From Deltaproteobacteria bacterium (GTDB lineage Bacteria; Desulfobacterota; GWC2-55-46; DRQE01): 38,465 nt of DNA. The notes under the pieces were generated by a model that made no database searches, was not told the origin of the DNA, and saw only the letters and a program-made list of their open reading frames with translations. Numbering within the stretch: the first letter of the stretch is position 1; each line of letters begins with the position of its first letter. The DNA lies in assembly GCA_024278765.1 (NCBI GenBank), contig JAJRSM010000073.1:1-38465 (forward strand), in the 5' to 3' direction. Made by a program: the position numbers and the translations under genes. Shown one piece after another: positions 3,005 through 23,537 of the stretch.

Positions 3005-3060
3005 ACTGATACCTCCCGTAAAAATTTTCTTAATAAAAAACTATCTTGACAGACTTTGCC

Positions 3061-3375
3061 CCACCGCAGGTGGTACTGCGTACAGCAAATCCATTAACTA
3101 AGTTCTATCTTCGCGGCGAAGCCGCTTTGCTCTCCGCAGGAGTGCCACGCCGCAGGGTACTGCGTACAGCAAATCCATTAACTAAGTTCTATCTTCGCGG
3201 CGAAGCCGCTTTGCTCTCCGCAGGAGTGCCGCACCGCAGGGTACTGCGTACAGCAAATCCACCTTGGTAATTACTGACTACGCACGGCGTGTAGCCATCT
3301 AATGAACTTCGCCCTCACGCAGTGAGTTGCGTACAGCATGTTCATTAATAAAACTTATACCCATGCGTAGCACCA
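3061..3375. repeat. 84-bp tandem repeat and related intergenic repeat units between lolA and yajQ
   Basis: This 371-nt gap holds no convincing gene. An 84-bp unit begins at 3073, 3157 and 3241 (GTACTGCGTACAGCAAATCC), two near-identical full copies plus a partial third. Each unit contains the dyad GTAC-TGC-GTAC, a TTCGCGGCGAAGCCG segment and GCAGG hairpin pieces. CCACC-GCA-GGTGG lies at 3061-3073, and a diverged unit (TTGCGTACAGCATGTTCATT) lies at about 3328-3348. The same family, in opposite orientation, recurs near 9.83-10.11, 16.6 and 23.5-23.75 kb. The unit length is a multiple of three, which keeps a spurious open frame through it. Confidence 0.9.
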
Positions 3376-9833: not shown

Positions 9834-10105
9834 CCACCTGCGGTGGAGCAAAATTCATTAGATAGTCACTTGCCGCTCACAGCACAAAACCCTATTAACA
9901 CACTTTGCCGTACGGCGAGCACCCACCTGCGGTGGAGCAAATTCATTAGATAGTTACTTGCCACTCACAGCACTAAACCCTATTAACACACTTTGCCGTG
10001 CGGCGAGCACCCACCTGCGCTCACTGCGTGAGAACAAAATTCATTAGATAATTACTTGCCGCTCACAGCACTAAATCATATTGATGCATTTGCTGTACGC
10101 AGTAC
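9834..10105. repeat. 88/89-bp tandem repeats between bactofilin gene and parB
   Basis: The 289-nt gap is filled by three head-to-tail units starting at 9834, 9923 and 10011. Each has CCACC-TGC-GGTGG or a replacement hairpin (CTCACTGCGTGAG in the third), then a TTCATTAGATA segment, CTCACAGCAC, CTATTAACACACTTTGCCG and a GCGAGCACC end. The third unit ends in the dyad GTAC-GCA-GTAC (10095-10105), the same core as the 3-kb repeats read on the other strand. No gene is seen here. Confidence 0.9.
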
Positions 10106-18755: not shown

Positions 18756-18839
18756 GTGCCATGGTCTTTATTTCAAAGACAAAAAACTCTCTCTAAAAAA
18801 TCAACCTAACCAATACTATTGCAAAAGGAGGACTTGACG

Positions 18840-19505
18840 ATGTTAAAGACCTTTCTATTATTTGCCTTTATATCTTTAGGAAGCCTTTTTATCTTTCAAC
18901 CGAATATCGCTAAGGCCACCGATAAAAACGCAACCTATGATACCTCTATCATAGTTGCCAAAAACTACCGTCAGAACAACCCTTGCATGATGAAGAATCC
19001 ATGCGCAATGATGAACCCTTGTTCTAAAAATCCGGGCATGATGAAGAACCCGTACGGGTTGAAAAATCCCTGCGGGTTGAAAAATCCCTGTTCAGGGATA
19101 AAACCTATCAGGAAAAAAGCATTTAAAAATAAAAAGCAGGTCCTTAAATACGGCAAGCGGCTCTGGAGAAATAAACAACTCGGCACAGCGGGCATCTCCT
19201 GCAAGACATGCCACCAGAAGGGCGCAAATCTCAAGAACAAGCCATACCCGCGCTACATTAAGATGACCGGTGATATAGTAACGCTGGACCAGATGATTAA
19301 CTTCTGCATAACCAACCCGATGAAGGGAGAGGCACTTAAGTGGAACTCCAAGAGACTGACCGCGCTTAATGCCTATACGCAGAAGCTGGCCAAGAAAAAT
19401 GCAGCCCTTAATAATCCCTGCTCAATGCGAAACCCATGTGCTATGAAGAACCCTTGCGCGATGAAAAACCCGTGTAGCATGAAAAATCCTTGCTCTGGGT
19501 ATTAA
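18840..19505 (+). CDS. Periplasmic monoheme cytochrome c with flanking Asn-Pro-Cys hexapeptide repeats
   Basis: The 221-aa product starts at ATG 18840 with AAGGAGG 8 nt upstream. It has a signal peptide (LLFAFISLGSLFIFQ, cut near AKA) and a single heme motif CKTCH (121-125). A likely axial Met161 lies in NPMKGEALKW. On each side of the heme domain is a low-complexity block of a hexapeptide close to K-N-P-C-x-M. Cysteines fall at 49, 55, 61, 78 and 84 in the first block, where two units have lost their Cys, and at 194, 200, 206, 212 and 218 in the second. Ten regularly spaced cysteines outside the heme site suggest metal or thiol chemistry, but the function is not known to me. The next gene, a pentaheme cytochrome, overlaps it by 16 nt. 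Confidence 0.85.
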   Translation: MLKTFLLFAFISLGSLFIFQPNIAKATDKNATYDTSIIVAKNYRQNNPCMMKNPCAMMNPCSKNPGMMKNPYGLKNPCGLKNPCSGIKPIRKKAFKNKKQVLKYGKRLWRNKQLGTAGISCKTCHQKGANLKNKPYPRYIKMTGDIVTLDQMINFCITNPMKGEALKWNSKRLTALNAYTQKLAKKNAALNNPCSMRNPCAMKNPCAMKNPCSMKNPCSGY

Positions 19506-20665
19506 GATCGAGACTACTTTATGCAGCACTCGCCGTAGTCATAGTTCCTGTTTGCTATGACTACGGCTTTGCCGCCGGTAACAGTCCACCTAATCTTAGT
19601 GCATCCTTCAGTGCCCACTGGCAGCGACCTCTAAACCTTACAAGAGACAACGCCAGCACACCCGGCCTTCTACCCGCAGACTGTAAACTCTGCCACCCGC
19701 AGCAATACGCCCCGTGGTCCAGATCCTTACACAGCAAAACAACAGGCCCGGGCCTTATGGGCCAGTTAAGCCCTGACTACCCAGGCTTTGCCGGTAGCTG
19801 CTACTTCTGTCACGCACCGGCAAAAAAACAAAATGAACTTCTTCTTGACGACCAGGGCTTTTATGAAAATGCCGCCTTCAATAAAGACTTGCAAGACTCG
19901 GGCGTTAGCTGCGCCATCTGCCACCTGCGCGACTCTGTAATTAACGGACCTACCGGCCCTACAAAAACAAGCAACAAAGACATACCGCACCAAAATACAA
20001 AAAAACCTATCTTTAAAGACTCTATTTTCTGCAGTGCCTGCCACCAACTCGACGGCGGCTTTGAGCTCAACGGCAAGTCACTTACCAATACATATAAAGA
20101 ATGGCTGGATAGCCCCTACCCGGCACAAAATATACATTGCCAAAGCTGCCATATGCCAGAGGGCAAGCACCTCTTCCTGGGCATACACGATAAAGCTACC
20201 GTGCGAGATGCACTCGAAATAAAAATAAAAAGTTCAAAAAAAGCCATTACCCTTACTCTGAAAATTACCGGAGCCGGACATTATCTGCCGACCTATGTCA
20301 CCCCGCTGATTATCGCCAGCGGTCATCTCATCGACAGCTCCGGTAATATTATAAAAAATACACTAATTAAAAACCTTATAGGCAGAGTAGTCAAACTCGA
20401 TCTATCAGAAGAAGTAATGGATAGCCGCATCGCACCGGGTGCGACCCATACCTTCAAGTACCAACCCGAATATCCCAAAAACACAAAAAGCCCTTTAAGG
20501 GCCGTAATCGAGGTTCGGGTCTATCCCGATGAGTTCTATAACAGGTTCTTCAAAGAGGCATTAAAAACCGGAGCTTATGCATCCAGAGCCCTTATGCTAG
20601 AGGCACTTGAGGCGACTGAACAATCGCCATACCTGCTTTTTAGGGGCATTCGCCCCTTTAATTAA
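19490..20665 (+). CDS. Pentaheme c-type cytochrome, exported
   Basis: Five CxxCH heme sites are seen at residues 65-69, 104-108, 141-145, 181-185 and 217-221 (CKLCH, CYFCH, CAICH, CSACH, CQSCH). A short N-terminal signal (LLYAALAVVIVPVC) precedes them. After the hemes, residues ~235-391 form a beta-rich domain without hemes (ALEIKIKSSKKAITLTLKI, AGHYLPTY) resembling the C-terminal domain of cytochrome c554-like multiheme proteins. The only usable start is a TTG at 19490, inside the upstream cytochrome gene, so translation is presumably coupled. No catalytic assignment can be made; electron transfer with the Asn-Pro-Cys cytochrome is inferred from the overlap. Confidence 0.82.
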   Translation: MLWVLRSRLLYAALAVVIVPVCYDYGFAAGNSPPNLSASFSAHWQRPLNLTRDNASTPGLLPADCKLCHPQQYAPWSRSLHSKTTGPGLMGQLSPDYPGFAGSCYFCHAPAKKQNELLLDDQGFYENAAFNKDLQDSGVSCAICHLRDSVINGPTGPTKTSNKDIPHQNTKKPIFKDSIFCSACHQLDGGFELNGKSLTNTYKEWLDSPYPAQNIHCQSCHMPEGKHLFLGIHDKATVRDALEIKIKSSKKAITLTLKITGAGHYLPTYVTPLIIASGHLIDSSGNIIKNTLIKNLIGRVVKLDLSEEVMDSRIAPGATHTFKYQPEYPKNTKSPLRAVIEVRVYPDEFYNRFFKEALKTGAYASRALMLEALEATEQSPYLLFRGIRPFN

Positions 20666-20741: not shown

Positions 20742-22163
20742 TCAGTATACAACTTCAAAAATCTCTACCGGCTTTTCTCTACCTTTAACCTTAAGGTTAC
20801 CGTACTCCTTCATCTCAAAAGAAAAACTGGCTGAGTCATAGATACTTCTGGTTACCAGAATCTGCCCGCCCTTGGCTATTGCCTGTAAACGTTGCGATAT
20901 ATTGACGACATCGCCGATAGCGGTATAGTCCATATGCTGCGGACTTCCTACGTTGCCAACAACGACCTCGCCTGAGCCGATACCAATACCGGTCGTAAAG
21001 TTTTTTCTTATAAAGTCATTCGGGATATCTCTAAGCTTTAACTGCATATCAACGGCGGTCTCAATAGCAAGTCGTTCGTTATTTACGGTCTCGGTCGGTG
21101 CGCCAAAGAGTGCGACAATCATATCACCGACGAATTTATTCAGAGTACCGCCGTAGCCAAAGACAATATCTACCATAAAGGTAAAGTATTCATTCAGGTA
21201 ATCTACGACCTCTTCTGGCGGAAGCTTTTCGCAAGTCGCTGTAAAACCTCTAATATCAGAAAAGAGTATTGCGATATCTTTCTTTACCGGCTCTAAGGAT
21301 ATATCATCTTTGCCAAGAAGGCTCGCCTCCAGAATCTTTGGCGATATATATCTACCAAGATTACTCTCGGCCAAGACCGAGCCAAGTTTATTTGCATGAA
21401 ACTGAGCGTTCTGTATGGCAGAGGCTACGTGGACAACAAGAATAGAGAATATCTGTAAGTCCTGCTCTGTATAAGAAACCTCTGAATCATTGCTTACATT
21501 AAAGACACCGAGCACCTTACCCTTTGCCTTAAGCGGAGCACACATAAGAGAATTTGCCGACTTAGCACCCTCCACGTAGCGCGGATCAGAGACTACGTCA
21601 TTTACTATCTCGGCCTTTCCAGACTCAAAGACATAACCGGCTATTCCCTCACCCGGGCGAAGTGTGATCTTCGGATGATACTCCTGGCCCGAGGCCGAAA
21701 GAATACTAAGGCGTCCTTCATCTTTATTTAAAAGCATTATAGAGGCACTCGTTGAATCGATAAACTTACCGGCCTCTGCTACAGCTAGAAGAGCTATCTC
21801 ATTAACATCCAACTTCTCACTCATGGTCTGCGCGATATCACTTAAAATACCAAGCCTTATATGATCTTCTGATTCAGATGTTGCAATAGCAGGTGCCGCA
21901 ACCTTGCTCATCTCCAGCTCATAGTCCATGATCCGAGAGATAAGACGAGCTACCCTCTCAAGGTCTCCCGAACCCTTTACATAGGCCGCAACAGAGCCAC
22001 CGACCTTGATCGGAAACTGCACAGGGTACTCGCCGTCTTTACCCAGCAGGCAAACCCCCTTGGTATCTACTATTGCCAAAGGAGTTGGATGCAAGCCAAC
22101 TATATCGCCAACAGTAGAAGAAAACCTTTTATCTGCTAAAAACATCTTTAAATCCAAAGACAT
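20742..22163 (-). CDS. Class III adenylate/guanylate cyclase with GAF domain
   Basis: The 473-aa protein has an unrecognised N-terminal region (1-95), a GAF sensor domain (about 110-260: GEGIAGYVFESGK, NSLMCAPLKAKGKVLGVFNV) and a class III cyclase domain (about 290-470). The cyclase domain has ILFSDIRGFTA and GDMIVALFGAP, providing the two metal-binding aspartates, and DVVNISQRLQAIAKGGQILV. It would make cAMP or cGMP in response to a small ligand or redox state. The nucleotide specificity is not certain by eye. I start it at ATG 22161-22163 (MSLDLKMF), preceded by GGAG and AAGG. The open frame extends 127 codons upstream, but that part is T-rich promoter DNA and the antisense of the neighbouring LTEP repeats. 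Confidence 0.9.
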   Translation of the reverse strand: MSLDLKMFLADKRFSSTVGDIVGLHPTPLAIVDTKGVCLLGKDGEYPVQFPIKVGGSVAAYVKGSGDLERVARLISRIMDYELEMSKVAAPAIATSESEDHIRLGILSDIAQTMSEKLDVNEIALLAVAEAGKFIDSTSASIMLLNKDEGRLSILSASGQEYHPKITLRPGEGIAGYVFESGKAEIVNDVVSDPRYVEGAKSANSLMCAPLKAKGKVLGVFNVSNDSEVSYTEQDLQIFSILVVHVASAIQNAQFHANKLGSVLAESNLGRYISPKILEASLLGKDDISLEPVKKDIAILFSDIRGFTATCEKLPPEEVVDYLNEYFTFMVDIVFGYGGTLNKFVGDMIVALFGAPTETVNNERLAIETAVDMQLKLRDIPNDFIRKNFTTGIGIGSGEVVVGNVGSPQHMDYTAIGDVVNISQRLQAIAKGGQILVTRSIYDSASFSFEMKEYGNLKVKGREKPVEIFEVVY

Positions 22164-22406
22164 TAGAACCTTACTCCTCACCTTAAAATCGACAATAAAT
22201 ATATAGCAAAACCCCATTACTACTATAAAAAGTATAACCCTTAAACCTGCTTTATTCAAGACGTAAAGAAAAAACAAAATTTTAAAAAACCTTAAAAAAA
22301 GACAGCAAAGCGCGATAAATACATATATTATAAACAAAAAAACCAGACCCACCCTTACCTCTTCAATATTATGGTAAGATAAAAAGAACCAACAAGGAGA
22401 AATACT

Positions 22407-23537
22407 ATGGCCTTTTATCCTACAAAAGAACTTATAGATCTGGTCTTTGGAGTAGCCGCTGCCACACCTCTTACCGAACCTCTTACCGAACCTCTTACCG
22501 AACCTCTTACCGAACCTCTTGCTAACCCACTTGAAAAAGAACATACAAAAGACAACGGCCTCAACTCGGATTATTCAAACTCCGGCACCTATCTAAAGCC
22601 CTCAGTCTTCTTTGGCAACTCAGAGAAAGACCACAAAACCCCGATTGGTATCTTTAATAGCCACAGACCCGTAAATAACCAAAAAAAGTTCAAAAACAAA
22701 CCAAAAACAACAGAAAACAGCCATATTATGACTGGTTTTGGTGATTTGGACAATCTACTTGGCACGCTCGATAACGACTCTCTTACCCTTATCGCAGGTC
22801 TACCCGGAGTGGGCAAGACCTCTTTATCTCTAAATATCGCGGAATACGTCGGCGCCGACTCTAATATGCCGGTCGCCTTCTTCTCGCTAGATATAAACCG
22901 AGAAGAACTGCTTACGCGCCTAGTCTCGGCTAGATCAAAGGTTACACTTAATAGCATCTATAGTGGCTTTATAACCTCTACCGAAAGAGAAGGACTCAAC
23001 GCAAGCCTTGAAGACCTTTACCACGCACCGATTTACATAGACGACAGCGCAGGGCACTCCCTTGCCTCAATTAAAGAACAGATCCAGACCACTAAAGACA
23101 AATTAGGACTAAAACTTATTATTATCGACTGCCTGCAACTTATAGGTGATAAAAACACCAATGAACGTTCTTTACGTAAAGTAAGTGCCGCACTAAAGGA
23201 CCTTGCAAGCGAGTTGACAATCCCTATAATCGCGACCTATCAATTACCTCAGGCATGGCAAAACAAAAAAGTCGTCCCACATCCGTCTTTTATTCTCAGA
23301 CAAGGAGCAGTTAAACACTACTGCGCCGATAAGGTAATACTTATCTACAGAAGAGGCGTCTGTAGAGAGTGCCACTGCCAGATAGAGCTCTGTACCTGCG
23401 CCCTAGACCTGGATACACGGCTCGTCGTTGGCCACGGAGATTCCCAGAAAGGCGTCACACACCTAAGATGCATAAGCAGCTCGGTACACTTCAAGACCCC
23501 ACCACCTGCGGTGGGGCAAAATCCATTAAATCACTAA
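22407..23537 (+). CDS. DnaB/RecA-type ATPase lacking the DnaB N-domain, with cysteine cluster
   Basis: Residues ~105-362 match the DnaB helicase C-terminal ATPase: TGFGDLDNLLGTL, Walker A GLPGVGKTSLSLNIA (131-145), SLDINREELLTRLVSA, Walker B LIIIDCLQLI (237-246), IPIIATYQLPQ, and QGAVKHYCADKVILIYRR followed by the closing beta strands. The DnaB N-terminal hexamerisation domain is absent; residues 1-105 are low complexity, beginning with four copies of Leu-Thr-Glu-Pro. Between the arginine-finger region and the last strands lies CRECHCQIELCTC (Cys 319, 322, 324, 329, 331), which could bind zinc. The last residues (PPPAVGQNPLNH) are encoded by an invading intergenic repeat. It probably is an accessory helicase-like or loader-like ATPase; the role is unproven. 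Confidence 0.8.
   Translation: MAFYPTKELIDLVFGVAAATPLTEPLTEPLTEPLTEPLANPLEKEHTKDNGLNSDYSNSGTYLKPSVFFGNSEKDHKTPIGIFNSHRPVNNQKKFKNKPKTTENSHIMTGFGDLDNLLGTLDNDSLTLIAGLPGVGKTSLSLNIAEYVGADSNMPVAFFSLDINREELLTRLVSARSKVTLNSIYSGFITSTEREGLNASLEDLYHAPIYIDDSAGHSLASIKEQIQTTKDKLGLKLIIIDCLQLIGDKNTNERSLRKVSAALKDLASELTIPIIATYQLPQAWQNKKVVPHPSFILRQGAVKHYCADKVILIYRRGVCRECHCQIELCTCALDLDTRLVVGHGDSQKGVTHLRCISSSVHFKTPPPAVGQNPLNH
22467..22526 (+). repeat. 12-bp coding minisatellite (LTEP repeats)
   Basis: CCTCTTACCGAA occurs four times without change at 22467-22514, followed by a diverged unit CCTCTTGCTAAC. Each unit adds Pro-Leu-Thr-Glu to the protein. Perfect identity of the copies suggests recent slippage, and the 12-bp length keeps the frame. 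Confidence 0.95.

Follow-up and report, generated by a model that had tools for sequence, protein, structure and literature searches.

What does an exported cytochrome do that carries its heme between two blocks of regularly spaced cysteines, and whose gene runs into that of a pentaheme protein? This question is raised by a gene pair of a Deltaproteobacteria bacterium, on a 38,465-nt stretch of contig JAJRSM010000073.1 (assembly GCA_024278765.1). We call the whole stretch the window and the genome that it comes from G000. The anatomy and the pairing of the two genes are well supported, and from them and from relatives in several phyla we ask what the pair may bind and where its electrons may go.

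Layout of the pair and its proline-cysteine arrays

The first gene (ORF1) runs on the + strand from an ATG at 18840 to a stop at 19503-19505 and encodes 221 aa with a single CKTCH; AGGAGG lies 8-9 nt 5' of the ATG and was judged a good ribosome site. The second gene (ORF2) opens with a TTG at 19490, a candidate start that gives a plausible signal peptide. A sequence-only reading of this DNA had called the two fused by overlap: a 16-nt overlap with the end of ORF1 exists, but the frames are separate, so that the genes overlap and are not fused. The same reading's ten cysteines in two blocks around a CKTCH domain were recovered, with both ORFs and all ten NPC units at the positions listed here. 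Scans for promoters and terminators gave sites no more numerous than in shuffles.

18823..18831, + strand: ribosome-binding site AAAGGAGGA of the NPC cytochrome gene (read from the sequence)
18840..19505, + strand: exported NPC-array monoheme cytochrome, 221 aa, with N-terminal signal peptide (ORF, profile, motif count)
18978..19094, + strand: N-terminal array, five NPC units plus degenerate NPG and NPY units (sequence, motif count)
19152..19391, + strand: SoxA/TsdA-type heme domain PF21342, residues 105-184 (profile and alignment)
19200-19214, + strand: CKTCH heme site, within the PF21342 domain
19305-19307, + strand: distal Cys156 of QMINFC, conserved, within the PF21342 domain
19413..19493, + strand: C-terminal array, five NPC units at 6-residue spacing (sequence, motif count)
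19490..20665, + strand: pentaheme c-type cytochrome (ExtKL / c552 / MccSep-like PHC family), 391 aa (ORF and profiles)

Counting motifs, we found exactly ten NPC units in ORF1, five on either side of the heme domain, whereas shuffled versions of the protein averaged 0.12 and never exceeded 2; two additional units of the first block are degenerate (NPG and NPY). Seven of the nine gaps between NPC units measure 6 residues; the remaining two span the degenerate units (17 residues) and the heme domain (110 residues). Eight different codon spellings occur among the ten units, so that chance or DNA slippage was rejected as the origin of the array, and the repeat is kept by selection at the protein level rather than by recent DNA duplication. 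One further cysteine, C156 of QMINFC, had been overlooked and is conserved in every relative. In 18 relatives, nearly all cysteines beyond the heme site and the leader belong either to an xPC unit or to the single conserved QMIN[F/Y]C, so that cysteines are added almost only as xPC. The 6-residue spacing that the earlier reading described for this protein did not extend to the relatives: their spacing is mostly 3 to 9 residues, their NPC count ranges from 3 to 24 per protein, and the residue preceding Pro varies too (HPC in locus L009, QPC in L018).

Tandem repeats of other kinds also occur in the window and its genome. A 12-bp repeat of 4.6 perfect copies (22466-22520) falls where two opposite ORFs overlap, read as KRFG repeats at the start of a cyclase-like ORF (20742-22544, -) and as PLTE repeats in a RecA/KaiC-like ORF (22407-23537, +). 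Two arrays with units of 84-88 bp (3057-3261 and 9834-10082) are located between housekeeping genes. Elsewhere in the genome, the NPC DNA pattern caught a 17-bp repeat with a AACCCATGC core (contig C43, 2617-2777), which probably does not encode an NPC protein, since its period is not a multiple of three.

Affiliation of the two cytochromes

The CKTCH domain does lie between the arrays as previously described, but its type is now corrected to SoxA-like: residues 105-184 match PF21342 (SoxA/TsdA cytochrome c) with 55.6 bits against a cut-off of 27, and the family profile matches the solved structures of SoxA (1h31, E 3.5e-13) and TsdA (4wqd, E 1e-4). C156 is invariant, is the only conserved cysteine beyond the heme site and the arrays, and aligns with INAC of SoxA and GDC (Cys123) of TsdA, the distal-ligand position of this family, so that His/Cys ligation of the heme is predicted. 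In TsdA, the distal Cys takes part in catalysis, and Arg109, Arg119, and Ser127 contact thiosulfate (PMC4423706). The alignment puts Met142, Met152, and Pro160 of ORF1 in place of these three residues; relative to the distal Cys, Arg is found at C-4 in none of 25 proteins and Pro at C+4 in all 25. In the phylum's SoxA-like monoheme proteins without arrays, C-4 is Met in most cases and C+4 is Pro in nearly all, and Met152 is common to ORF1 and the first domain of SoxA, so that the replacements are a property of a wider group. ORF1 reaches 57.5 bits with the SoxA equivalog TIGR04484, below its curated cut-off of 110. SoxY was found neither in the window's genome nor in the deltaproteobacterial relatives searched; it is present in 8 of the 25 genomes with NPC proteins, mostly gammaproteobacteria. 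By its sequence, then, ORF1 has a SoxA-like heme domain and is not a SoxA, and a canonical SoxA or TsdA function was marked down because the contact residues are replaced and the genome has no SoxY. The PF16785 (SMBP) domain is found neither in ORF1 nor anywhere in its genome.

ORF2 has five CxxCH sites and a C-terminal domain that is modelled in part as beta-rich, and the pentaheme profile matches MccSep (9wt8, 5e-15) and T. tepidum c552 (5ze8, 5e-14). A 2025 paper joined ExtKL, Gsu2801, and cable-bacteria cytochromes in one pentaheme (PHC) family, structurally homologous to c552 (PMC11976967), and profile matches identify ORF2 as a member of this ExtKL/T. tepidum c552/MccSep family. The earlier reading is thereby corrected on one point: the pentaheme protein itself belongs to a known family. 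Within it, ORF2 falls into a distinct subfamily that scores above 280 bits versus below 165 for the rest of the PHC family in the genomes, and that keeps five CxxCH together with His81, His227, His233, and His264 with few or no exceptions; its score with the ExtKL equivalog NF040886 is 59.5 bits, below the curated cut-off of 250. Two AlphaFold models, built from 6 and 9 sequences, reached mean pLDDT values of 52 and 45, too low to base any claim on them. The best Foldseek match of the ORF2 model in the PDB is 5ze8 (E 7e-7), with a TM of only 0.26 for a poor model, and residues 231-391, inspected for the C-terminal Ig-like domain of the PHC family, are partly modelled as beta-rich (pLDDT 74-90), without a confident fold match of their own. 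Long N-terminal extensions of some pentaheme ORFs (e.g., L006 and L011) were discarded as the NPC array read in another frame and not protein.

Conserved pairing and exchangeable modules

The two genes form a tight pair, as had been proposed, and the pair is conserved among relatives: it is present in deltaproteobacterial MAGs and one Pseudomonadales MAG, and in one Nitrospinota and one Nitrospirae MAG the two components are both present but located apart. Of 395 genomes of the phylum, 11 contain the strong pentaheme subfamily and 15 the NPC DNA pattern, with arrays in all 11 pentaheme genomes versus 4 of the 384 others (Fisher 2e-18, which overstates independence since the genomes are related). 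A strong NPC-type cytochrome is found in 11 genomes of the phylum, namely ten of the pentaheme genomes and G270; in G205, which has the pentaheme gene, the adjacent NPC protein is divergent and hemeless, and its domain has no Pfam match. The pentaheme gene is also present in 10 of 229 gammaproteobacterial genomes, with an NPC protein beside it or up to about 1.1 kb upstream in six, elsewhere in one, and none seen in two, while in the remaining one a small protein with KNACGS units adjoins the pentaheme gene. Arrays with wide spacing (G602, G519, G467, and G466) escape the strict DNA pattern, so that the gammaproteobacterial NPC count is a lower bound. Two gammaproteobacteria (G461 and G534) have NPC cytochromes without this pentaheme gene. 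Several other gammaproteobacterial matches to the pattern appear to be non-coding or unrelated repeats. Viral contigs contained no relatives, and a plasmid search gave only weak 28% Leptospira matches to the pentaheme protein.

The expectation that the five-heme gene always directly follows does not hold strictly: an NPC protein adjoins the pentaheme gene in 20 of the 29 genomes that have this gene, lies elsewhere in 5, and was not found in 4, among them G002, whose contig begins inside the pentaheme gene. The sequence-only reading had also named an outcome that would count against it, repeats that vary beside a constant neighbor. The number of repeats does vary, but the SoxA-like copy of G270, which has zero NPC units, comes from a genome that lacks this pentaheme gene as well. 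This copy falls inside the NPC group in the tree (support 90/81), suggesting that array and partner were lost together.

What precedes the pentaheme gene can itself be exchanged. In G403, a protein in which an SMBP (small metal-binding protein) domain lies between NPC units (PF16785, 9e-7) overlaps the pentaheme start; of the other SMBP-domain proteins that we found in these genomes, most have no NPC. A hemeless NPC protein stands in the heme protein's stead in G467, a His/Met-rich NPC protein replaces the SoxA-like protein before the pentaheme gene in G466, and such a protein occurs in addition to the NPC cytochrome in G602. Thus, with an exchangeable heme domain and an array variable in size and spacing, the shared core is the NPC array plus the pentaheme protein.

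G403 also has a second arrangement (L007, 3025-3252), where the NPC cytochrome is followed by a 75-aa remnant that joins the pentaheme start to its end, with all five hemes missing; the full pentaheme copy of this genome is located elsewhere, behind the NPC-SMBP protein.

Possible functions and known systems

Six loci have genes for copper, heavy metals, or arsenic nearby: a Cu-translocating P-type ATPase with an HMA protein (L124), a CusABC-like pump with a Cd/Zn-type ATPase (L138), CopD with RND parts and an ArsR-type regulator (L130), a cupredoxin (L136), and ArsM and ArsS (L120 and L012). Metal-type genes are far fewer in 40 control regions (481 kb, same genomes), a comparison that is suggestive only, as the neighbor families were picked after inspection and the control is biased. 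A Crp-type regulator is near six loci, and a rhodanese gene lies 3' of the pentaheme gene in three; each is found in none of the 40 control regions. The window's own neighbors, named by sequence reading, are housekeeping genes, an ApbE-like gene, and a nucleotide-cyclase-like gene.

Two arrangements around the genes were noted in their own right. In a Nitrospirae MAG (L012, 4808-8071), the NPC cytochrome gene lies between ArsM-like (arsenite methyltransferase) and ArsS-like (arsenosugar radical SAM) genes, with an AhpD-like gene. In two genomes (L122, 990-7055; L135, 291-6383), a conserved respiratory cluster with a cytochrome bd-like subunit I, c-type cytochromes, and an EB_dh cytochrome is found a few kb upstream of the pair.

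Three other functions have to be weighed. The pair could be a sulfur-compound enzyme, in which the SoxA-like heme oxidizes or reduces thiosulfate, polysulfide, or other sulfur species while xPC holds sulfane sulfur and the pentaheme protein carries electrons. The SoxA/TsdA domain with its retained, in TsdA catalytic, distal Cys (PMC4423706), the rhodanese genes, and DsrE-like proteins near two loci are consistent with this, but all three TsdA contact residues are replaced, the second heme domain of TsdA is missing, and SoxY is absent from this genome and the deltaproteobacterial relatives searched, and we consider such an enzyme unlikely. About equally improbable is that the arrays cycle between thiol and disulfide, serving the envelope as a redox buffer or as a cross-linked scaffold, with electrons leaving through the hemes. 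An exported protein with many regularly spaced cysteines would suit this, as would the small thioredoxin-like proteins (CPTC or CHVC) adjoining NPC genes in four gammaproteobacterial loci; however, TlpA-type thioredoxins also occur in 3 of the 40 control regions, so that an association with them was abandoned, and array proteins with SMBP domains or His/Met-rich stretches speak for metal instead.

Less likely still is an electron conduit, with the pair as part of a respiratory or extracellular electron chain that the arrays merely anchor or assemble. Members of the pentaheme family include ExtKL, which has a link to extracellular electron transfer, and the sPHC of cable bacteria (PMC11976967), and EB_dh-type cytochrome genes are near six loci versus 2 of 40 controls. 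However, we noticed no porin or outer-membrane cytochrome beside the pair, and anchoring leaves both the cysteine in every unit and the SMBP swap unexplained.

We tentatively prefer an exported thiol array that would bind soft metals or metalloids and whose redox partners would be the SoxA-like heme and the pentaheme protein. The two genes would yield an exported redox pair, whose first member is a SoxA-like monoheme cytochrome, predicted to be His/Cys-ligated, with proline-cysteine arrays on presumably flexible arms. These arrays may act as an extracytoplasmic thiolate sponge for thiophilic ions, e.g., Cu(I) or As(III), and electrons may pass between the heme with its pentaheme partner and the array or the metal bound to it, so that thiols stay reduced or the metal changes its oxidation state. 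A unit number that varies from 3 to 24 looks more like a capacity for binding than like one fixed site, and the SMBP domain, the His/Met-rich swaps, and the metal-gene neighbors favor metal binding. Also in favor of this reading are the addition of cysteines almost only as xPC and the co-occurrence of the pentaheme gene with NPC arrays, in most genomes side by side. Against it, the distal Cys and the pentaheme partner, both invariant, would not be needed for simple metal storage, metal genes do not adjoin the pair in the window or in most loci, and sulfur-type neighbors (rhodanese, DsrE-like, and thioredoxin-like) recur too.

More broadly, the xPC array may be an unnamed exported module that is carried on heme, SMBP, His-rich, and other domains and works with one pentaheme subfamily in several phyla, a redox-coupled metallothionein-like extracytoplasmic system; we regard this generalization as possible though doubtful. 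Were this the case, multiheme cytochromes of the envelope would be connected directly to metal binding by thiols, and cells could change or release bound metal through electron transfer. It would also assign a function to a pentaheme subfamily known from deltaproteobacterial, Nitrospinota, Nitrospirae, and gammaproteobacterial genomes, and further such systems could be located by a simple sequence signature. Consistent with the earlier impression of a layout without a described system, neither NPC repeats nor this pairing is described in the open-access literature searched.

Metallothioneins are likewise cysteine-rich in short repeats, a resemblance that implies no sequence relation; in contrast to them, the window protein is exported, has xPC rather than CxC/CxxC clusters, and is joined to heme. 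The heme domain, CxxCH, and distal Cys of SoxA/TsdA (PF21342) align with ORF1, which differs in its one heme, replaced thiosulfate-contact residues, xPC arrays, and a genome without SoxY. Other monoheme SoxA-like cytochromes of the phylum (MINWCIQNPLEG type) share the single-heme domain but lack NPC arrays, occupy separate parts of the tree, and have no pentaheme gene within flanks of roughly 1.4 kb. SmbP (PF16785) is represented by the SMBP domain within NPC proteins positioned as the window's first gene, whereas the window protein itself is without it. Finally, the window's pentaheme protein shares five CxxCH and conserved flanking motifs with the PHC family (ExtKL, MccSep, T. tepidum c552, and cable-bacteria sPHC), yet it belongs to a distinct subfamily, one that is paired with NPC proteins.
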